IMG/VR virus record: IMGVR_UViG_3300010158_000352
Coordinates: 1-22,256 of that record
Strand: one strand, 5' to 3'
Length of the DNA: 22,256 nt
Source: a virus
The notes below the pieces were generated by a model. That model saw only the letters and a list, made by a program, of their open reading frames with translations, was not told the DNA's origin and did no database searches. Positions 2,759-20,316 of this stretch are shown here, in pieces (within the stretch, counting starts at the first letter, position 1; each line of letters begins with the position of its first letter). The position numbers and the translations under genes are program-made.

Positions 2759-3760
2759 ATGGCTTTCGCCAATAGTTCGATCAGTGACATCATTGCGACG
2801 AACATTCAGAGCCGCAGCGGTGAACTGGCCGACAACGTGACCAACAATAACGCGCTCCTTCGTCGTTTGAAGGATCGTGGCAACGTGAAGACCTTCAGCG
2901 GCGGTAACGTCATTCTGCAGGAAATCATGTACAATGACAGCACCACCAACAACACCAACTCGTACAGCGGTTACGAAGTGTTGAACGTGTCGCAGAACAG
3001 CCCCATTTCGGCTGCTCAGTTCAGCATCACTCAGTACGCCTCGGCGGTGACGATTTCCGGTCTGGAAATGATCCAGAACTCCGGCAAAGCGGCCATCATC
3101 GACCTGCTGGATGGTCGCATGAATGTTGCGGAAGCCCAGTTGGCTAACCGTATTTCGGGCGACATCTATCTGGACGGCACTGGCAACAGCGGCAAGAACA
3201 TCACCGGCCTCGGCGCTGCTGTTCCTGACGCGCCCTCCTCGGGAACGTATGGCGGCATCAACCGCGCTTCGTTCTCGTTCTGGCAGTCGGTTGCTTATTC
3301 CGGCGTGACCAATGGCGGCTCGGCTGTTACTGCCTCGAACATCCAGCAGTACATGGACGCTCTGGCCGTGCAGCTTATCCGTGGTACGGACAAGCCTGAC
3401 CTGATCGTTGCCGACAATAACTACTATCGCCTGTACTTGCAGTCGTTGCAGTCCATCCAGCGCATTTCGGACTCCGGTTCGTCGATGGCTGGCGCTGGCT
3501 TTGCCTCGCTGAAGTACTACGGCGCTGGTATGGCGTCGGATGTTGTGCTTGACGGTGGTATCGGCTCTGCCGCGACTGCCAATCATATGTGGTTTCTCAA
3601 TACATCCTATCTTATGTTCAGACCGCATGTGGATCGCAACTTCGTCCCGATTGGTGGCGAACGTCAGAGCGTCAATCAGGACGCCATCGTGAAGCTCATC
3701 GGCTGGGCTGGCAATTTGACCTGCGCGGGCGCGCAGTTTCAGGGGGTTTTGATAGCCTGA
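2759..3760 (+). CDS. Major capsid protein
   Basis: A 333-residue protein matching the length and pattern of an HK97-fold-type major capsid protein I recall from podovirus-like phages. The N-terminus is MAFANSSISDIIATNIQSRS, followed by NNALLRRLKDRG and the GGNVILQEIMYND stretch around residues 48-60. The middle, ISGLEMIQNSGKAAIIDLLD at residues 99-118, is typical of the family, and the C-terminal half holds DRNFVPIGGERQSVNQDA. It forms the icosahedral shell around the genome. Translation starts at ATG 2759 behind GAAAGGA at 2745-2751. The gene follows the scaffold-like gene by 23 bases and is followed by an inserted HNH endonuclease gene; its C-terminus appears intact. Confidence 0.92.
   Translation: MAFANSSISDIIATNIQSRSGELADNVTNNNALLRRLKDRGNVKTFSGGNVILQEIMYNDSTTNNTNSYSGYEVLNVSQNSPISAAQFSITQYASAVTISGLEMIQNSGKAAIIDLLDGRMNVAEAQLANRISGDIYLDGTGNSGKNITGLGAAVPDAPSSGTYGGINRASFSFWQSVAYSGVTNGGSAVTASNIQQYMDALAVQLIRGTDKPDLIVADNNYYRLYLQSLQSIQRISDSGSSMAGAGFASLKYYGAGMASDVVLDGGIGSAATANHMWFLNTSYLMFRPHVDRNFVPIGGERQSVNQDAIVKLIGWAGNLTCAGAQFQGVLIA
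3721..3736 (+). other. GC-rich hairpin at the capsid gene 3' end
   Basis: CTGCGC, loop GGGC, GCGCAG form a perfect 6-bp stem inside the last codons of the capsid gene, followed by TTTC and then a G run and TTTT. It could stabilise or partly terminate the abundant capsid mRNA ahead of the homing endonuclease gene. The tract after it is poor in U compared with a proper rho-independent terminator, so no terminator is called. Confidence 0.35.
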
Positions 3761-3829: not shown

Positions 3830-4285
3830 ATGCCAGTAGGTAGGCCACCAGTAGATGAAAAGAAAAGGTTTTTGGAAAAGGTTGTGCAAAGGGAATCTGG
3901 TTGTCACGAATGGGTATCGACGCTTCACCGGGATGGATATGGAAAGTTCTATTTTCGGTCCCGGCAAGAGCAGTCCCACCGCGTTGCTTACAAACTGTTT
4001 GTAGGCGATATTCCTTTAAAGCTTTGGGTTCTGCATAAATGCGACAATCGCAAATGTGTAAACCCGCAGCACCTATTCCTTGGTGATAGTGTAGCAAATA
4101 TTCGCGATATGGATACTAAACGCCGACGCGGTACGCGATGCACTTTAACTAGGGAGCAAGCTAATGGGGTTTTGGATCTTTTAGCCGAAGGGTATACGCA
4201 ACAAACCATTGCCAGTCGCCTTGGTATTCATCAAACAGCAGTCAGTCGTATCAAACTAGGAAAAACTATGCTATTTAAGGATTAA
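3830..4285 (+). CDS. HNH homing endonuclease with C-terminal HTH
   Basis: A 151-residue free-standing HNH endonuclease. Residues 49-52 (SHRV) begin the fold, and residues 69-84 (HKCDNRKCVNPQHLFLG) carry the HNH core: His69, Asn78 and His81, with Cys71 and Cys76. NIRDM follows at 90-94. Residues 105-143 form a helix-turn-helix-like DNA-binding tail (QQTIASRLGIHQTAVSRIKLG). Such enzymes make site-specific breaks and spread by copying into gaps beside conserved genes. Here it sits between the capsid gene and the next virion gene. The start has GGGAG at 3819-3823. Base composition is visibly more AT-rich than both neighbours, a sign of separate origin. The next gene's ribosome binding site (AAGGA, 4277-4281) lies inside its 3' end. 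Confidence 0.9.
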   Translation: MPVGRPPVDEKKRFLEKVVQRESGCHEWVSTLHRDGYGKFYFRSRQEQSHRVAYKLFVGDIPLKLWVLHKCDNRKCVNPQHLFLGDSVANIRDMDTKRRRGTRCTLTREQANGVLDLLAEGYTQQTIASRLGIHQTAVSRIKLGKTMLFKD

Positions 4286-4288
4286 AAC

Positions 4289-4825
4289 ATGGCTTATTCA
4301 TTTACGGAAAATCGCGCTGGTATGCTCCAGATTGCGAACACTGATGCCGGTGTTACGATGGCGAATGGCACCTCTGCCATTCCCACCCCGCCGGGAACGC
4401 TTGGGCAGGTTGTCCGCGCGTTTGATCCGACCTACGGCGAAGGTGAGTTCATTCTGCTTGTTGGCGTTGCCAGCACGGTAGTTGGCTCGCTGGTTACCTA
4501 CAACACCACGACCTATCAGACTGCCCTTTCGCCCAATACGGCGAACTTGGCGCAGCCTGTTGCCGTGGCGATGTCGGCCAACCTTGCCGCGTCTTTCGGC
4601 TGGTACCAGATTGGCGGCCTCGCGGTCATCAAGAAGACCGCCGTTGCAGTCAACGCTGGCGTGTCTGTTTTCCAGTCTGCTACCACGGGCCGCATTATGC
4701 CCACGGCAGCTTCTGGTAAGGCGGTTCTTGGCGCTAAGTCTGCTAACCTTGCCACTGTGGCTTCGGGTGTTTCGACTGTTATTGTGTCGATCAACCGTCC
4801 CCATCTTCAGGGTCAGGTGACGTAA
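4289..4825 (+). CDS. Small structural-type protein after the capsid gene
   Basis: A 178-residue Ala/Val/Thr/Gly-rich protein with predicted beta structure and no catalytic motif. It opens MAYSFTENRAGMLQIANTD and includes a proline-rich PTPPGTLGQVVRAFDPTYGE region. Position next to the capsid gene (apart from the inserted endonuclease) and composition suggest a capsid-associated, possibly decoration-type, virion protein. It starts at ATG 4289 behind AAGGA at 4277-4281. The stop codon overlaps the next start (TAATG, 4823-4827). I do not recognise a named domain, so the virion role is inferred from context. Confidence 0.7.
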   Translation: MAYSFTENRAGMLQIANTDAGVTMANGTSAIPTPPGTLGQVVRAFDPTYGEGEFILLVGVASTVVGSLVTYNTTTYQTALSPNTANLAQPVAVAMSANLAASFGWYQIGGLAVIKKTAVAVNAGVSVFQSATTGRIMPTAASGKAVLGAKSANLATVASGVSTVIVSINRPHLQGQVT

Positions 4826-6171
4826 TGATCCTATCGTCTAATTTAGACGAAACGATCCCTATCGTGTGCAACACGGAGGATCACGAGGTTTTCGGCAACG
4901 TAAGAAGTGCCGTAGCTCGTGATCTTCCGTGGCTGCAACTTGCAGACCCGCACGATGGTGTAGCTGTGATTGTGGGGGGCGGCCCTTCTATGAAGCCGCT
5001 GCTCCCCATGATTGCCGCTCATAAAGCCGCTGGGCAGACGATTTTTGCCGTAAACGGTACGGTTCCCATCCTTGCCAGCGTAGATGTGACGCCTGACTAC
5101 TTTGTGCTGCTTGACGCTAGGCTGGCTAATCAGGGCTTTGTCTATCCCAATAAGGCCACTAAGTACCTCATCGCGTCTCAGTGCCAGCCTAGGGTATTTG
5201 ATGCTTTGGGCTGTAATGACGTAACCGTCTGGCACCCGGCTTACCCCGGCATTCAGGAGTATATCGGGGACGAAGAATGCGCCCTGATCGGCGGAGGCAC
5301 CACCGTTGGCCTCCAAGCCATGAGCATCGCCTTCTGCCTTGGTTACAGGAATATCCACCTTTACGGCTTTGACTCCAGCTATTCGATGGCTGGCGAAGGC
5401 CATGCATACCCCCAAGCGGTCAATGATGGCGACGCCCACGAAAGCTACTGGGTCAGCGGCAAGGAATACATTTCCGCCCCGTGGATGGCCCGTCAGGCTA
5501 TGGAATTTCAGACAGCCGCCCAGCAGCTTGCTGAAGAAGACACGATTATACAGGTTCATGGCTACGGGCTGCTGCCCGCCATTGCCAAGGCCATGTCAGA
5601 ACCGCCGCCGCCTATGTCGGAAGTCGAGAAATATCAGGCCATGTGGCACACCCCGCTTTACCGGGAAGTTGCTCCCGGCGAGGCTTTCGCCAATGCTTTC
5701 ATAGACATAGCTGATCCCAAGCTAACTGATATTATTGTTGACTTTGGCTGTGGGACTGGTAGAGGCGCTAAAAAGATTGCCGAACTAACCCGCTGCGAGG
5801 TGCAACTTGTTGATTTTGCTGACAATTGCCGGGACGAAGGCAATAACATGCCGTTTACTGTGGCTGATCTGACCAAGCCAATAGGGATTAGCGGCAATAT
5901 CGGCTATTGTACTGACGTTTTGGAGCATATCCCGCCGGACGATGTGCCTGATGTTATTAAAAATATTATGGATTGTGTTGATAGTTGCTATTTCAAAATA
6001 GCCCTATTTGATGATACGATGGGTCAGTTGATCGGTCACCCGCTTCATCTGTCTGTATTCCCTAGCGAATGGTGGCAAGACAAATTCTCGGCCTACGACA
6101 TAAAGTATCAGCATTCTGACGAAGGCGATGCCTGTCCGTATGCCACGTTGTACGTTCAAAACCCTAAATAA
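4825..6171 (+). CDS. DUF115/MptE-like domain fused to a SAM methyltransferase
   Basis: A 448-residue two-domain protein. Residues about 45-250 look like the DUF115 / 6-hydroxymethylpterin diphosphokinase MptE-like fold: GGGPSM at 51-56, FAVNGT at 74-79, and GGGTTVGLQAMSIAFCLGYR at 156-175 leading into HLYGFDSSY. This superfamily also includes the Maf flagellin glycosylation factors. A Pro-rich linker (EPPPPMS) near 259-265 leads to a class I methyltransferase domain. VDFGCGTGRG at 305-314 is the SAM-binding motif I, Asp330 is the acidic motif II residue, and CTDVLEHIPPDD at 362-373 is the post-motif. The substrate is unknown. It lies inside the head operon, coupled by TAATG to the gene before it. 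A role in modifying a virion protein, glycan or nucleotide is possible but unproven. Confidence 0.8.
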   Translation: MILSSNLDETIPIVCNTEDHEVFGNVRSAVARDLPWLQLADPHDGVAVIVGGGPSMKPLLPMIAAHKAAGQTIFAVNGTVPILASVDVTPDYFVLLDARLANQGFVYPNKATKYLIASQCQPRVFDALGCNDVTVWHPAYPGIQEYIGDEECALIGGGTTVGLQAMSIAFCLGYRNIHLYGFDSSYSMAGEGHAYPQAVNDGDAHESYWVSGKEYISAPWMARQAMEFQTAAQQLAEEDTIIQVHGYGLLPAIAKAMSEPPPPMSEVEKYQAMWHTPLYREVAPGEAFANAFIDIADPKLTDIIVDFGCGTGRGAKKIAELTRCEVQLVDFADNCRDEGNNMPFTVADLTKPIGISGNIGYCTDVLEHIPPDDVPDVIKNIMDCVDSCYFKIALFDDTMGQLIGHPLHLSVFPSEWWQDKFSAYDIKYQHSDEGDACPYATLYVQNPK

Positions 6172-6182
6172 AGGATCAAATC

Positions 6183-6566
6183 ATGGCTATTCCCTCACGC
6201 GTTCTGGCCTCCGGCAATTCGCCGCTGGCGACCACTTCCATCTGCGGCGACGGCGCGACTGCCTTGGTTGCCGCTGGCTCCACACAGGCCACTGCCCTGC
6301 AGCTTTCGGCTGTTGTCAACGCTATCGGCACCACTGCCGCCAGCACTGGCGTCAAGCTGCCCCCGTGCGAAGCTGGTGCGCTGGTGTACGTCTATAATGG
6401 CGGCGCTTCGACCCTGCAGATTTACACCAACGAAACGTCTGGCGTGACCATGAATGCGGCGGTTGCCGGTTCGACCGGCGTTGCTCTTGGCACTACCAAG
6501 ACAGCGATCTGCATTGGCACTTCCGCCACCACTTGGGCCGTTACTGCGGCCCTTTCGTCAACGTAA
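6183..6566 (+). CDS. Small Ala/Thr/Gly-rich structural-type protein
   Basis: A 127-residue protein of short hydrophobic beta-like strands separated by Ala/Ser/Thr/Gly turns. The middle (LVYVYNGGASTLQIYTNETS) suggests a compact beta-sandwich or barrel. There is no signal peptide or known catalytic motif. It starts at ATG 6183 with AAAGGA 8 bases or so upstream, and ends 12 bases before the next gene. Two similar-sized, similarly composed proteins flank the DUF115-methyltransferase gene (this one and the product at 4289), and both could be virion decoration or cement proteins. That role is inferred from position and composition only. Confidence 0.7.
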   Translation: MAIPSRVLASGNSPLATTSICGDGATALVAAGSTQATALQLSAVVNAIGTTAASTGVKLPPCEAGALVYVYNGGASTLQIYTNETSGVTMNAAVAGSTGVALGTTKTAICIGTSATTWAVTAALSST

Positions 6567-6578
6567 AAGGAGTAATTT

Positions 6579-7151
6579 ATGCCGTTGGATAGTGACACCG
6601 CCAATGCCGATGCTCACCTGCATGTAGAATTTTACATGCACGATAAGGCTCCCTACAAGGATGTCCCGTTCGTTCGCATCATGGTACCCGGCGACAAAAC
6701 TAACATCATTGAGCAGCCCGTTCGCGAACATCACAAGGAACGGTTTATTCGTCAGTGGCTATATTTCCAGTCCCAGAATGATGACGGTCAGGTGATCGGC
6801 ACCAAACTGGATCAGTGGAACAAGGATTGCCCTGAAGATTTCAGTGACCATCAGATGGCAGAATTGCAGATTCTTAAGTTTCAGACCGTCGAGCAGGTTG
6901 CTACGGCCACGGATTCCCAGTTGCAGCGTATGGGCATGGGTGCCGCTGGTATGAGGGAACGTGCTAGGGCGTATCTGACGAGTAAGAACCGCACAGAAAG
7001 CGGAGCGGAACTGGCAAGAACGCGCAGCGAACTTGATGAGCTAAAGGCCCAGATGGCTACTCTCATGTCGCAGCGTAAACCGGGCAAGCCCAGAAAAGAT
7101 GATGTAGATGTCGAGTACGATGCTCCAGTTGGTGCAACAGGTCACCAATGA
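6579..7151 (+). CDS. Conserved phage head-module protein with helical C-terminus
   Basis: A 190-residue protein. Residues 30-60 (VPFVRIMVPGDKTNIIEQPV and the following KERFIRQW) and residues 94-133 (AELQILKFQTVEQVATATDS, then MGMGAAGMRERA) match a protein I recall from head modules of podovirus-like phages without an assigned role. The segment 100-133 looks like a helix-hairpin-helix element. Residues 140-165 form a short coiled coil, and the last 25 residues are charged and flexible. The start at 6579 has an excellent AAGGAG. The last 44 bases overlap the start of the adaptor gene in another frame, an unusually long overlap for this operon. Confidence 0.75.
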   Translation: MPLDSDTANADAHLHVEFYMHDKAPYKDVPFVRIMVPGDKTNIIEQPVREHHKERFIRQWLYFQSQNDDGQVIGTKLDQWNKDCPEDFSDHQMAELQILKFQTVEQVATATDSQLQRMGMGAAGMRERARAYLTSKNRTESGAELARTRSELDELKAQMATLMSQRKPGKPRKDDVDVEYDAPVGATGHQ

Positions 7152-8013
7152 ACTAGGCGTTCCCACACCCGTATCGGTTGCGGGTAATACGAACCAAGAC
7201 GTTATCCAGATTTTGGCGTTGATGAACGCTTCTGGATACGAATTGCTGCGTAAAGCCGACTGGCGCGAACTTACGACTGCATACAGCTTCTTCACTTCGT
7301 ACACGACTACGACGGGAACTTACACCACTTCCGCCCTGACCATCACTGGCATCCCGTCCACTGCCAGTCTGGACACGACTTACATGGTTGTCGGCACGGG
7401 CATCCCGAATGCCACATTCATTGCGAGCGTTGACTCTGCCACTCAGGTCACGCTTTCCAACTATTCAACCAGCAACGTGACCGCTGGGACGATCTACTTC
7501 CAGAAGGTTAAGTACGCCCTGCCGACTGACTACGACAGCATCGTGCCGCGTACACAGTGGGACAAGAGCAAGCATTGGGAAATGCTTGGCCCGGAGTCCG
7601 CCCAGCAGTGGGAATGGCTTCTCAGCGGCTTTATCAGCACTGGCCCGCGTATTCGCTGGCGGCTGCTAGGCGGCTATTTCCAGATTTGGCCGGGCTATTC
7701 GGCCAATGAGAACCTTGGCTTTGAGTACCGTAGCAAGGGCTGGGCGCTTTCGTCCGGCGGGACCGTGCAGAACAGCTTTACGGCTGACACGGATACCTGC
7801 ATCTATCCTGACCGCCTCATGGTCCTGTCCACCAAGCTGAAATACTTCCAAGCCAAGGGCTTCGACACCACGGCGCTGTACCGCGATTACCTGACTGAAT
7901 TCGAGACTTCTGTGGCTCAGGATACCTCGGCGGCCAACCTGTCGTTCGCCCCGCGTCCCGGTAGCGTATTGATCGGTTGGGACAATATCCCGGATAGCGG
8001 TTATGGGAATTAG
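7108..8013 (+). CDS. P22 gp4-like head-tail adaptor (connector) protein
   Basis: A 301-residue protein whose N-terminus (MLQLVQQVTNELGVPTP, then NTNQDVIQILALMNASGYEL) has the helical pattern of phage adaptor proteins that bind the portal ring. In these phages the family precedes the tail stabilisation gene, as here. Residues 60-130 form a Thr/Ser-rich beta region, and LPTDYDSIVPRTQWDKSKHW near residue 137 is typical of the family. It probably extends the portal channel to the tail tube. Two starts are possible: ATG at 7108 (used here) or ATG at 7120; neither has a strong ribosome binding site, so coupling to the upstream gene is likely. The 3' end overlaps the next gene by 11 bases. Confidence 0.75.
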   Translation: MSSTMLQLVQQVTNELGVPTPVSVAGNTNQDVIQILALMNASGYELLRKADWRELTTAYSFFTSYTTTTGTYTTSALTITGIPSTASLDTTYMVVGTGIPNATFIASVDSATQVTLSNYSTSNVTAGTIYFQKVKYALPTDYDSIVPRTQWDKSKHWEMLGPESAQQWEWLLSGFISTGPRIRWRLLGGYFQIWPGYSANENLGFEYRSKGWALSSGGTVQNSFTADTDTCIYPDRLMVLSTKLKYFQAKGFDTTALYRDYLTEFETSVAQDTSAANLSFAPRPGSVLIGWDNIPDSGYGN

Positions 8014-9577
8014 TCCCGGCTCCATGGTTCAGCGTAACGCGGCTCAGGTTGAGTCGCTGCCCGCACCGCTGGGCGGCTGGAACGCGCGTGATAGCTTTGC
8101 CAATATGGACCCTGCGGACGCGGTTACGCTTATCAACATGTTTCCGACTGTCAGCAATGTTACGCTGCGGGATGGCTATACCAAGTATGCCACTGGCCTT
8201 GATGGCAAAGTCCAGACCGTCATGGTCTACAACTATGGCAACAGTTCCAAGATGTTCGCCGCCACCAGCACGGGCAAGATTTATGACGTAACGGCAGGCG
8301 GCGTGGTTGGCGCTGCTGTTGTCAGCGGTAAGACAAATGGCATCTGGGAATATATCAATATCACCACGGCGGGCGGTAATTACCTGATGTGCGTCAACGG
8401 GGTTGATAAGCCACTGCTGTATGACGGCACGACTTGGACGCCTCTTGACGGCGCGTCTACGCCAGCCATTACAGGCGTCACGACCACAAGCCTTTGTAAT
8501 ATCACGCTATTTAAGAACCGCATCTGGTTCGTTGAGCAGTACACCCTGAAGGCGTGGTATCTGCCGACCCTCTCAATTGGCGGGGCTGCCCAGTACCTCG
8601 ACATGAGCGCGATCTGCAAGTTCGGCGGCCATCTAGTCGATCTGGACACTTGGACGCTTGATGCTGGCTACGGCGTGGACGACAACTTGGCGTTCATCAC
8701 CAGCGTTGGCGAAACTATCGTTTACCGTGGCACTGACCCGGCCAGCGCGGCCACATGGGCGTTGATCGGCGTCTGGAAGCTGGGCAGCCCAGTCGGCACT
8801 CGGCCAATGCTCAAATGGGCTGGCGACCTGCTGATCCTGACTTATGACGGCCTTATGCCGATGGCCGCGTCTCTGCAATCCAGCCGCCTCGACCCTCGTG
8901 TGGCCCTGTCAGACAAGATTCAGGGTGCCATCACCAATGCCACAACCCAATACGGCGGCAACCATGCGTCTGTAGGCTGGCAAATAACATACACGGCTAA
9001 GTACAATGCCGTCTGGATCAATATCCCCGTGGCTGATGGCCTGCAAGAACAGTATGTGATGAATACCATCACCAAGTCTTGGTGCCAGTTCACGGGCTGG
9101 GCGTCCTATTGCTGGGAAATCTATAATGATGACCCCTATTTTGGCTCAGATGGCTACGTCGGTAAGGCTTGGAGCAACAATTACACTGATGACATTAACA
9201 ACATCCAGACCACGACGCAGCAAGCGTTCAACTACTTTGGCGCTCGTGGTGTAAAGAAGTATTTTACCCGCGCTCGGCCAAGCATTTTTAGCAGCGGAAA
9301 CCCATCAATAAGTGTCGGCATGAATGTCGATTTTGACACTTCAGACACCACTGCTGCGGTTACATTTGCTAACGCTACTTATGGCCTTTGGGATTCCGCA
9401 ACTAGCAAATGGGACTCAGCAATTTGGGGGTCTGACCTGATGATCCAGAATACTTGGCTTGGCATCACCGGCCTTGGCTATTGCGGCGGATTACAGATGA
9501 AGACGGCAAGCAGCGGATTGCAGATACAGTGGGCGTCAACAGATGTGGTATATCAAAGCGGATGGGCAGGCGTATGA
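8003..9577 (+). CDS. P22 gp10-like tail stabilisation protein
   Basis: A 524-residue protein with the opening pattern of a podovirus tail hub protein: LPAPLGGWNARDSFANMDPA near residues 19-38, then AVTLINMFPTVSNVTLRDGY. The rest has repeated beta blades, such as SKMFAATSTGKIYDV and DLLILTYDGLMPM, consistent with a beta-propeller-like packaged-DNA stabilisation protein (P22 gp10 family) that sits below the adaptor and closes the tail. ATG 8003 overlaps the adaptor stop by 11 bases; ATG 8024 is an alternative start just before the conserved region. The product ends with a Trp-rich beta region and overlaps the next gene by ATGA at 9574-9577. Confidence 0.8.
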   Translation: MGISPGSMVQRNAAQVESLPAPLGGWNARDSFANMDPADAVTLINMFPTVSNVTLRDGYTKYATGLDGKVQTVMVYNYGNSSKMFAATSTGKIYDVTAGGVVGAAVVSGKTNGIWEYINITTAGGNYLMCVNGVDKPLLYDGTTWTPLDGASTPAITGVTTTSLCNITLFKNRIWFVEQYTLKAWYLPTLSIGGAAQYLDMSAICKFGGHLVDLDTWTLDAGYGVDDNLAFITSVGETIVYRGTDPASAATWALIGVWKLGSPVGTRPMLKWAGDLLILTYDGLMPMAASLQSSRLDPRVALSDKIQGAITNATTQYGGNHASVGWQITYTAKYNAVWINIPVADGLQEQYVMNTITKSWCQFTGWASYCWEIYNDDPYFGSDGYVGKAWSNNYTDDINNIQTTTQQAFNYFGARGVKKYFTRARPSIFSSGNPSISVGMNVDFDTSDTTAAVTFANATYGLWDSATSKWDSAIWGSDLMIQNTWLGITGLGYCGGLQMKTASSGLQIQWASTDVVYQSGWAGV

Positions 9578-17206: not shown

Positions 17207-17327
17207 CTTTTGTGCGGTTGCGAAGGTGATACCCTTCTCTCGGCTGCATGATACCCTAGAGACTATCGAAGCCGTGAAAGAGCATAACGCGGTCTACCAT
17301 TCCCTTTGCCCCACTAAGGCCCCCTAA
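17106..17327 (+). CDS. Rz1: Rz1-like outer-membrane spanin lipoprotein candidate
   Basis: A 73-residue protein. A basic N-terminus (MTYRRQIRLG) and hydrophobic segment (TLFALLLPLILV) end at Cys23-Cys24, followed by APQTQ. This is a lipoprotein-like signal, but the residue before the modified Cys is Val or Cys rather than the usual Gly/Ala/Ser. The body (DFCAVAKVIPFSRLHDTLET, then VKEHNAVYHSLC) matches small phage proteins that I recall following Rz. TTG at 17082 is an alternative start; ATG 17106 was chosen because it places the charged signal directly before the hydrophobic stretch. It is embedded over the 3' half of the Rz-like gene and coupled to the endolysin by TAATG. Confidence 0.7.
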   Translation: MTYRRQIRLGTLFALLLPLILVCCAPQTQIAATDFCAVAKVIPFSRLHDTLETIEAVKEHNAVYHSLCPTKAP

Positions 17328-17848
17328 TGACGCCTACATTCGATACCGCCATGCGGCTCCTGCTACGGCACGAGGGCGGCTACGTTAATCACCCAGAAGA
17401 CAATGGCGGAATGACCAATCTAGGCGTCACACAGGCCGTCTGGAGCGCCCACATTGGCAGGGAGGCGACTGAGGCTGACATGCGCGCCCTGACGCCGGAG
17501 GCCGTCACGCCCATCTACAGGGCGCGGTATTGGGATACCGTTCGGGCTGATTTACTGCCTAACGGGCTGGATTATTGCATATTTGATTGTGCGGTAAATT
17601 CCGGGCCGGGCCGGGCAATTAAGCTGCTTCAGTATGTGCTTTACACCAAGGTGGACGGCATCATGGGAAGAAACACCTTGGCATTGGCTGAGAAGTCTGA
17701 TTGTGTACAGCTCATTGAGGACTACAGCCAGAAACGGCTGGATTATCTGCGCTCTCTAAATGATTGGAAGACCTTCGGCGCTGGCTGGGGGACTCGCGTT
17801 GCAGACGTTGAAATAGACGCTAAACGTATTTGGAGTACCCATGGCTGA
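17327..17848 (+). CDS. GH108 endolysin (N-acetylmuramidase)
   Basis: A 173-residue peptidoglycan hydrolase of the glycoside hydrolase 108 type. RHEGGYVNHPEDNGGMTNLG at residues 14-33 contains the expected catalytic Glu16 and the DNGGMTN substrate-loop motif. YWDTVRADLLPNGLDYCIFD follows, and the FDCAVNSGPGRAIKLLQ stretch at 86-102 begins the C-terminal predicted peptidoglycan-binding domain. It cleaves the glycan backbone after the holin opens the inner membrane. No signal peptide is present, so export depends on the holin. Length is normal for a single-module GH108 phage lysin. The start overlaps the Rz1-like stop (TAATG) and the end overlaps the next gene by 8 bases. Confidence 0.92.
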   Translation: MTPTFDTAMRLLLRHEGGYVNHPEDNGGMTNLGVTQAVWSAHIGREATEADMRALTPEAVTPIYRARYWDTVRADLLPNGLDYCIFDCAVNSGPGRAIKLLQYVLYTKVDGIMGRNTLALAEKSDCVQLIEDYSQKRLDYLRSLNDWKTFGAGWGTRVADVEIDAKRIWSTHG

Positions 17849-19204: not shown

Positions 19205-19347
19205 GCGCGCTTCTGGTCGCCTTCGTATCAGTGATATACGCGGCTGTGGCTGTCTCCCAGATACGGCAGGGCCATTACGCAGATTCCGTCATTTGGTCCG
19301 GTTACGTCTTAGCCAATGTCGGGTTTGTCTGGAAATACCTGCAATGA
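19201..19347 (+). CDS. Small two-helix membrane protein
   Basis: A 48-residue gene coupled by ATGA on both sides (19201-19204 and 19344-19347). MSALLVAFVSVIYAAVAVSQ gives a first membrane helix, a polar loop with IRQGHYADS follows, and a second hydrophobic segment (VIWSGYVLANVGFVWKYL) closes the protein. It resembles tiny membrane proteins scattered in phage late and early regions. No function is recognised. It lies well after the endolysin, so a second holin-type role is possible but not favoured. Confidence 0.65.
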   Translation: MSALLVAFVSVIYAAVAVSQIRQGHYADSVIWSGYVLANVGFVWKYLQ

Positions 19348-19688
19348 CCCTCAAGCTGCACCCAGAAATGATTGCAGCGGGCTATGAATTTCTGCGCCAG
19401 ACAGAGCCATTCCAGCACATGAAGCTGCCTGAGGCCGAGGACATCGGCTTCCACGTTGTCCGCAGTCGCAAGATGTTTGCTGATTTTAGCGTCGAAAACG
19501 GGATACCGATCATCCGGGTTAGCACGGAGAAAAACGGCCATACTAACACATTATTGGCTACAATCGCACACGAAATGATCCATTTGCATCAAGAGCTTAC
19601 GGGCGATAGGGAGACGCACGGCCCCCGCTTTAAGCGTATGGCGGCCAAAGTGTGCCGGGCGCACGGGTTTGATCCGCTGACGTTCTAG
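19344..19688 (+). CDS. SprT-like zinc metalloprotease domain protein
   Basis: A 114-residue protein with the SprT-type zincin signature: HEMIH at 76-80 (His76, Glu77, His80) followed by QELTGDRETHGPRFKRMA, where His92 is the expected third zinc ligand. The N-terminal part is helical, with a beta strand before the active helix (GIPIIRVSTEKNGHTNTLLA). It is short compared with cellular SprT/Spartan, which carry a zinc ribbon, so it is a bare catalytic domain. Related host proteins remove DNA-bound proteins; a phage role is unproven. The frame is open upstream, but ATG 19344 is set by ATGA coupling. The stop overlaps the stop of the opposite-strand gene by 4 bases. Confidence 0.82.
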   Translation: MTLKLHPEMIAAGYEFLRQTEPFQHMKLPEAEDIGFHVVRSRKMFADFSVENGIPIIRVSTEKNGHTNTLLATIAHEMIHLHQELTGDRETHGPRFKRMAAKVCRAHGFDPLTF

Positions 19689-19840
19689 CTGTAGCTGCGT
19701 GTTTGCACGACCTTAACGGCGTCCGTGTCAACCTCTAAATCAAGCAATTCCTGCACGATTTCCATGGCCGCCTGAAACGCGCCCGGCTCTGTATCGTCGT
19801 ACAGAACGTCAAAGTCGATGGAGACGCGGATGGACTTCAT
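19685..19840 (-). CDS. Small 51-residue protein, last gene of the leftward operon
   Basis: A short gene running 19840 to 19685. The product begins MKSIRVSIDFDVLYDDTEPG and continues with a helical FQAAMEIVQELLDLEVDTDA, ending in KVVQTRSYS. It is acidic and probably a small alpha/beta fold. It is supported by an ATGA overlap with the stop of the RuvC-like gene (19837-19840). Its own stop codon overlaps the SprT-like gene's stop by 4 bases, tail to tail. I do not recognise a family. Confidence 0.65.
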   Translation of the reverse strand: MKSIRVSIDFDVLYDDTEPGAFQAAMEIVQELLDLEVDTDAVKVVQTRSYS

Positions 19841-20316
19841 TGGACCTTATCCTGACTAGCGCCGTATTTGGCGATTAGCGTTGCGTCACTTCTACCATCA
19901 TCCTTCTTGCGCTGGAATAGCTCCGCGCTGGCTGGGAATAGCTGCATGGCCCGCTCCCGGCTGCCGTCCTTGCCGTCCCTGACGCCCATAGCCCGCTGCC
20001 AAGCCTGTGGCGTGACCAGCGTGGTGGGAATGTCATAGGCCGCCAAGACGCCCTCTAGGATGCCCGTAGAGCGTCCAAAGCTGAATACGCTCGTGACCCC
20101 CTGCCCCGGCATGGCGTTGACGCGCTCCAAGAACGCCGCCTCGGCATGGCGCTTGATTACGATGGCCGCGACAAGCTGGGCGCTGACTTCGCGCTTCAGC
20201 TTATTGTTGCGCTTGACCTCGACTGTGGGCATGTCCACGACGTCTATGGTGTTGTCGCGGGTGTCCAAGAACGCCAGCGCGCCAGACAGGCCGGGATCTA
20301 TGCCTAGGATAATCAT
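19837..20316 (-). CDS. ruvC: RuvC-like Holliday junction resolvase
   Basis: A 159-residue RNase H-fold nuclease. GIDPGLSGALAF at residues 5-16 gives the first catalytic Asp7. AFLERVNAMPGQGVTSVFSF at 61-80 contains catalytic Glu64 and the Gly-rich loop. KKDDGRSDATLIAKYGA at 137-153 carries the last acidic residues (Asp139/140 and Asp144), and TPQAWQRAMG precedes it. It cuts branched DNA made during recombination or resolves concatemers before packaging. Length is close to bacterial RuvC. It sits between a PD-(D/E)XK-like nuclease gene and a small gene coupled by ATGA, so it is part of the DNA metabolism operon on the minus strand. Confidence 0.9.
   Translation of the reverse strand: MIILGIDPGLSGALAFLDTRDNTIDVVDMPTVEVKRNNKLKREVSAQLVAAIVIKRHAEAAFLERVNAMPGQGVTSVFSFGRSTGILEGVLAAYDIPTTLVTPQAWQRAMGVRDGKDGSRERAMQLFPASAELFQRKKDDGRSDATLIAKYGASQDKVQ

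Follow-up and report, generated by a model that had tools for sequence, protein, structure and literature searches.

A candidate virion-glycosylation module in a freshwater phage: a Maf/MptE-type domain fused to a methyltransferase among the head genes

Introduction

Why would a phage keep, among the genes that build its head, a single gene joining two recognisable enzymatic folds? The question is raised by IMG/VR virus record IMGVR_UViG_3300010158_000352, of which positions 1 to 22,256, here called the window, were analysed. In a preliminary description of this stretch, the gene had been read as a DUF115/MptE-like domain connected through a Pro-rich linker to a SAM methyltransferase, placed in the head operon between two small structural-type genes and coupled to one of them. 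The product was suggested to modify a virion glycoprotein, a surface sugar or a nucleotide.

Two bodies of work bear on this question. Maf enzymes O-glycosylate Ser/Thr residues with CMP-activated nonulosonates, the Clostridium botulinum Maf also accepts CMP-Kdo, and the pfam01973 domain resembles Cst-II (PMC11339370). In mycobacteriophages, Corndog carries an O-methyltransferase and glycosyltransferases between its portal and protease genes, which have been proposed as capsid modifiers (PMC4351075), and glycosylation of capsids and tails by phage glycosyltransferases is established according to Freeman 2023, as cited in PMC12619734 and PMC12363180. A search of the open-licence literature on DUF115 or MptE in phage returned no paper on any such phage protein, the fusion included. 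The UniProt names in BFVD show that phage MptE-like proteins have already been seen, named by Pfam only.

Results

The fusion gene follows a capsid gene and is coupled to a virion gene

The features of the locus are collected in Table 1. The placement in the head operon was correct, as the gene is preceded by genes matching the PHROGs for a major head protein and a virion structural protein. The coupling held up as well, since its ATG overlaps the TAA stop of the virion structural gene as TAATG (sequence ...GTGACGTAATGATC). Of the two neighbours described as structural-type, only the upstream one has support for that label, because the downstream protein, g127, has no family match in Pfam or PHROGs. 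Tail-type genes come after g127 and the 190-aa gene that follows it. The capsid protein is 49-52% identical to those of phages Mx8, Mx9, BUCT555 and ppBjS10J-1, and the cultured phages of this capsid type have Proteobacteria, Myxococcus or Microcystis as hosts. The order of scaffold, capsid, 178-aa gene, fusion and downstream genes is kept even in contigs whose capsid identity has fallen to 35-38% (L051-L054).

Table 1. Features of the window and of the fusion protein.
Feature	Position	Strand	Evidence or remark
Major capsid protein, Mx8-like	2759..3760	+	phrog_9953 major head protein, E 3e-102
Free-standing HNH endonuclease with HTH	3830..4285	+	PF13392 HNH_3, E 1.3e-9; outside the proposed module
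178-aa virion structural (decoration-type) protein	4289..4825	+	phrog_29386, E 8e-26; proposed acceptor
Fusion gene (MptE-like/Maf-type domain and class I SAM methyltransferase)	4825..6171	+	ATG start, 448 aa
N-terminal domain (residues 1-258)	4825..5598	+	Maf/MptE/sialyltransferase fold; proposed glycosyltransferase
Linker SEPPPPMSEVE (residues 258-268)	5596..5628	+	sequence; short, proline-containing
C-terminal class I SAM methyltransferase (residues ~264-448)	5614..6168	+	motif I DFGCGTGRG at residues 306-314
127-aa protein g127	6183..6566	+	Ser/Thr-rich (27%); downstream neighbour of the fusion gene
190-aa conserved downstream gene	6579..7151	+	phrog_20268, E 1e-12, and synteny; right-hand border of the variable slot
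Glycoside hydrolase 108 endolysin	17327-17848		
SprT-like metalloprotease	19293-19688		
RuvC-like protein	19837-20316		weak match

Three other genes of the window deserve a comment. The HNH gene, which sits between the capsid and 178-aa genes, is missing there in most relatives (it is found in contig L097) and is therefore probably a recently arrived homing-type element. Further along, the gene at 8003-9577 matches PHROG 5107 'amidase' (lysis). The annotation of its relatives differs, being head closure in Mx9 and phage stabilization protein in ctMlz233, and the lysis name is apparently an error that was passed on from Mx8. After it, the 192-aa protein encoded at 9454-10032 matches short tail fibre and tail fibre adhesin PHROGs (phrog_12032, E 3e-29) and occupies the place that a GNAT acetyltransferase gene holds after the 8003-9577 homologue in Mx8, ctMlz233, RHph_I3_18 and others.

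The N-terminal domain is closest to Maf

Residues 47-187 of the fusion protein match PF01973 (MptE-like/DUF115) with an E-value of 2.5e-20 (73.4 bits against a cut-off of 34.6), and its relatives match too. In the structure matches of the full-length model, methyltransferases filled the list and CstII was absent from the top matches, and for this reason the N-terminal half was also folded alone (pLDDT 82, pTM 0.85). The resulting model resembles the Maf flagellin glycosyltransferase 5mu5 most (Z 22.1, 224 residues, 2.9 A), followed by archaeal MptE 8sd5 (Z 15.8 over 194 residues), SteA (Z 11) and the GT29/GT42 sialyltransferases (Z 8.2-9.7; CstII Z 9.4). Sequence profiles give the same order, with E-values of 1.8e-15 for Maf 5mu5, 0.025 for MptE and 0.47 for the CstII sialyltransferase, the last being a weak match that aligns only the GxGPS loop (GGGPS, residues 51-55, in the fusion protein) and a GY-x-x-x-x-L-x-G-x-D segment. 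The NCBIfam flagellin modification protein PseD also matches this half (E 4e-13), at 46.9 bits against the NF050051 (Maf/PseD) cut-off of 670 and over profile positions 229-386 of 640 only. Relatives of the fusion protein give weak matches to the PHROG 'alpha-2,3-sialyltransferase'. The DUF115/MptE fold ascribed earlier to this half is thus borne out and is correct as the family, and, with Maf first by fold and by profile and PseD named by NCBIfam, Maf is its nearest characterised member. The fold alone leaves the chemistry of the domain unfixed, since an archaeal pterin pyrophosphokinase uses it too.

The C-terminal half is a class I methyltransferase

The halves are connected by a short stretch with a mild excess of prolines, SEPPPPMSE (residues 258-266), in agreement with the linker first described. 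Beyond it, Pfam methyltransferase models match residues ~301-385 slightly below their cut-offs (PF13649, E 1.5e-5), and PHROG 24759 'methyltransferase' matches residues 275-423 (E 1.7e-8). In an AlphaFold2 model of the whole protein (alignment of 31 sequences, mean pLDDT 84), the C-terminal half resembles many SAM methyltransferases with Z-scores of 15.5-17.8. Judged by this model and the structure comparison, it is a class I SAM methyltransferase, and with its invariant SAM motifs this confirms the enzyme recognised at the outset. The top matches include AtmM, RebM, NodS, METTL6 and UbiG; with rows within 1 Z treated as tied, they span sugar, tRNA and small-molecule enzymes, and hence give no substrate and fail to separate methylation of a sugar from that of a protein or a small molecule.

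Both halves are under purifying selection

The fusion is present in numerous aquatic phage contigs of IMG/VR; a scan with a diverse alignment detected 296 relatives, of which the best 80 were kept. Both halves persist in ~30 non-redundant (<93% identity) full-length members that are 36-86% identical, and dN/dS is 0.05-0.17 in each half, indicating purifying selection. The fusion is therefore more than a chance joining, given its ~30 relatives down to 36% identity and the low dN/dS; conservation in related phages, a check proposed with the preliminary description, came out in its favour. Among 31 sequences, the invariant residues of the N-terminal half include G51, G53, P54, S55, N77, D97, V161, G162, D183, H193, Q224 and G248, and those of the C-terminal half include D306-F-G-C-G, D330, D348, D364, E367, H368, H408, W416 and W417. 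The SAM-binding and acidic residues, whose loss would have spoken against the original reading, are retained: G308, G310 and G312 of motif I, the acidic D330 after beta-2, D348 and D364 do not vary in the 31 sequences. The loop predicted to form the active site hardly varies in the window's clade, where G51, G53, P54 and S55 are constant in 32 sequences; it is altered in some relatives occupying the same slot (e.g. L206).

Searches by tblastn with the fusion protein and with its N-terminal half against 50,697 phage records gave no N-domain match, and the sole methyltransferase match was phage ctUtU524. A single scan of genome contigs found four loci only: L108, a virus-like Rhodobacteraceae MAG contig, has the fusion, and L109-L111 hold methyltransferase-only or weak matches. 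Among these four, no bacterial fusion gene was found in a telling context.

The methyltransferase is an optional partner of the MptE-like domain

Is the fusion itself the unit? A capsid-based scan, unbiased towards the fusion, gave 57 contigs with enough sequence for the slot to be surveyed. Only 5 of the 57 carry the fusion, 34 encode an MptE-like protein without the window's methyltransferase and 18 have neither. The fusion described earlier is therefore conserved, as stated above, but is not the core unit: in the slot the MptE-like domain is found more often alone, and the methyltransferase is an optional accessory that can be gained and lost. Its departure can be seen in two contigs (L091, 8001-8846; L085, 4697-5542), where a natural in-frame deletion has removed the methyltransferase and left the MptE-like domain, joining residue ~273, just past the linker, to the last ~8 residues.

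Other partners take its place. In L208 and L283 the MptE-like domain is fused to a glycosyltransferase (phrog_1962); L164 combines a glycosyltransferase, an MptE-like domain and Methyltransf_24; L173 has an MptE-like gene, a glycosyltransferase-4-like gene and a Methyltransf_23 gene, a layout repeated with partial family matches in L184, L180 and L218. A second head lineage, of siphophages, shows a related arrangement. Phage ctUtU524 (MW202621.1) and four IMG/VR contigs (L159-L162) have a Gp13-like capsid gene, unrelated to the window's, followed directly by two coupled genes, a homologous methyltransferase (43% identity) and then an MptE/sialyltransferase-like gene. The resemblance to the window lies in these two proteins and their place right behind the capsid gene; the differences are that they are separate genes in the reverse order behind another type of capsid gene, and that the GGGPS loop is altered in some members (L161, L162). 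From the slot partners and this second lineage together, it follows that glycosyltransferases and methyltransferases of several Pfam types have joined the MptE-like domain behind capsid genes.

Contigs L056-L058, considered as a distant form of the fusion, were set aside: they carry a heptosyltransferase-family (GT9) domain with a methyltransferase and have no MptE-like domain. This unrelated fusion (L056, 7080-8408), from IMG/VR contigs of up to 494 kb, is another glycosyltransferase/methyltransferase pairing.

The MptE-like gene is inherited with the upstream virion gene

The 178-aa protein is the ortholog of Mx8 gp49, a 'virion structural protein'. Its assignment as a putative decoration protein rests on this orthology, on the PHROG 'virion structural' and on the position of its gene after the capsid gene. 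The linkage set comprised 57 IMG/VR contigs whose slot is complete and whose capsid protein shares 84-97% identity with that of the window. Of these, 36 carry a member of this gene family together with the MptE-like gene, 21 lack the two, and no contig has one without the other. In the examples inspected (L178, L185, L186), both are replaced by an unrelated 98-aa protein. The latter (L178, 7016-7312; L186, 7014-7310) has no PHROG match, and the capsids concerned are near-identical.

Two trees, one built on the downstream gene g301 and one on the capsid protein, place at least 10-11 changes of state in the history of the MptE-like gene. Supported branches provide 7 (g301 tree) and 6 (capsid tree) independent contrasts. 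The decoration gene followed the MptE-like gene in 6.6 of the former and 5.7 of the latter (p 0.016 and 0.031), and in none did it switch in the opposite direction. For g127, on the other side of the fusion, the figure is 2.0 contrasts only (p 0.5), and this gene is not linked. Joint switching of two adjacent genes could partly reflect physical linkage; adjacency alone is insufficient, because it would link both neighbours and g127 is unlinked. The co-inheritance makes the 178-aa protein the leading candidate acceptor; g127, with 27% Ser/Thr in 127 aa, was considered for the same role and ranks lower, as its inheritance does not follow that of the MptE-like gene. A comparison of Ser/Thr columns in decoration proteins with and without the enzyme, the latter being two control sequences only, points to T33, S142, T156, S159 and S162 as candidate sites, which should be taken as a lead only.

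A distant homologue of the decoration protein is present in Mx8, Mx9 and ctMlz233, where the MptE-like gene is absent. The link between enzyme and decoration protein hence belongs to the window's lineage, and the modification would not be a general requirement of the decoration protein.

Discussion

Our results lead us to favour, with moderate confidence, a reading of the fusion as a virion-glycosylation module that would place a host-made activated sugar on the decoration protein, with the methyltransferase capping the glycan. The N-terminal domain, as a putative glycosyltransferase, would draw its activated donor from the host; the most likely donor is an acidic sugar activated with CMP, such as CMP-Kdo or a CMP-nonulosonate. 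CMP-Kdo is the ordinary CMP-sugar of Gram-negative bacteria. A host origin of the donor is the most likely one because no CMP-sugar synthetase was found in 19 related phage records, several of which are fragments. The sugar would go onto Ser/Thr residues of the freshly made 178-aa protein, encoded upstream and translationally coupled, and the fused methyltransferase may then add a methyl group, as a cap, to the attached sugar or to the decoration protein itself. In sister phages, other glycosyltransferases and methyltransferases could extend or cap the glycan, or the first sugar might stay bare. A shell decorated in this way may alter the adhesion of the particle or the way in which it is recognised. 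Of the targets first envisaged, a virion or host-surface one still fits, and among virion glycoprotein, surface sugar and nucleotide, the slot partners and the co-inheritance with the decoration gene favour the virion.

The enzyme might instead act on the host, transferring a methylated sugar to LPS, flagellin or another surface polymer and thereby blocking superinfection or altering host recognition. Phage glycosyltransferases that alter the host surface are common, the nearest solved relative (5mu5) modifies flagellin, the PseD model matches, and PHROG labels the partner glycosyltransferases 'moron'. We nevertheless consider this unlikely, as the gene is always found among the head morphogenesis genes, after the capsid gene and before the head-tail genes, and is coupled to and co-inherited with a virion gene, not with its other neighbour.

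A somewhat less likely alternative is that the MptE-like domain is non-catalytic and docks the decoration protein, so that the C-terminal domain can methylate its Lys, Gln or N-terminus. Lysine-methylated flagellins do occur in Maf-dependent bacteria (PMC9290775), some slot relatives as well as L161 and L162 have a changed GGGPS loop, and the methyltransferase motifs are invariant. Against this, most slot relatives have the MptE-like domain without a fused methyltransferase of the window's kind, and in these the N-terminal domain must act alone; moreover, the loop is close to constant in the window's clade, and glycosyltransferases recur as partners in the slot. Finally, pterin or nucleotide chemistry, in which the domain would pyrophosphorylate a pterin, a nucleoside or a similar compound and the methyltransferase would modify the product for cofactor or nucleotide supply, has the Pfam name and the structural match to MptE in its favour but is very improbable, since the profile is far nearer to Maf and since the late virion-gene position, the decoration linkage and the glycosyltransferase partners fit no pterin pathway.

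Comparison with known systems shows what the putative glycosylation module shares with them and where it departs. Maf/PseD, represented by the Magnetospirillum Maf 5mu5, has the PF01973 domain, the same fold and the clearest sequence match, and it transfers an acidic sugar intracellularly to a self-assembling surface protein; we propose an equivalent job for the phage enzyme. Importantly, there are clear differences. Maf proteins are ~630-670 aa long, carry two further domains, a Rossmann-like one at the N-terminus and a helical one at the C-terminus, and belong to flagellar loci, whereas the phage protein consists of the central domain only, with a true SAM methyltransferase added, and lies beside capsid genes. 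MptE, the archaeal 6-hydroxymethyl-7,8-dihydropterin pyrophosphokinase, gives the Pfam family its name and shares the fold, but its sequence match is weak and the phages show no pterin context. The GT42/GT29 sialyltransferases (Campylobacter CstI/CstII, mammalian ST3Gal and ST8Sia) are the next structural neighbours; they are remote, and any shared catalytic residues are putative. The mycobacteriophages Corndog (gp35-gp38), Che8 and Myrna resemble the window in having an O-methyltransferase and glycosyltransferases among their head genes that act on virion proteins (PMC4351075; Freeman 2023, as cited in PMC12363180). They differ in their enzyme families and their Actinobacterial hosts, and the accounts cited describe no MptE/Maf-type enzyme or single-chain fusion. 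Relatives of the window likewise have glycosyltransferase and modifying genes in the head gene run; in the window itself, the glycosyltransferase would be the MptE-like domain.

In conclusion, phage virion glycosylation is known, and what would be new here is a cassette-borne virion-glycosylation module of the Maf/sialyltransferase type in aquatic phages. More tentatively, and as a possibility that we hold well short of probable, aquatic phages in their hundreds may have an enzyme of the Maf/sialyltransferase type that serves a single decoration protein and would put host-derived acidic sugars (Kdo or nonulosonic acids) on the shell, methyl-capped in the window's clade. This would amount to a widespread sialylation-like coat on the capsids of phages of Gram-negative hosts, carried by a cassette that is swapped together with the decoration protein. 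While a few mycobacteriophages are established cases of virion glycosylation, the present analysis bears on whether sugar-coated heads are common in phages of Gram-negative bacteria. For a lineage common in lakes and rivers, it singles out one enzyme family, one candidate acceptor protein and a donor that the host could supply, and it predicts measurable mass shifts. A further suggestion is that the name '6-hydroxymethylpterin diphosphokinase MptE-like' may be wrong for many of the phage genes that bear it and that may in fact encode glycosyltransferases.
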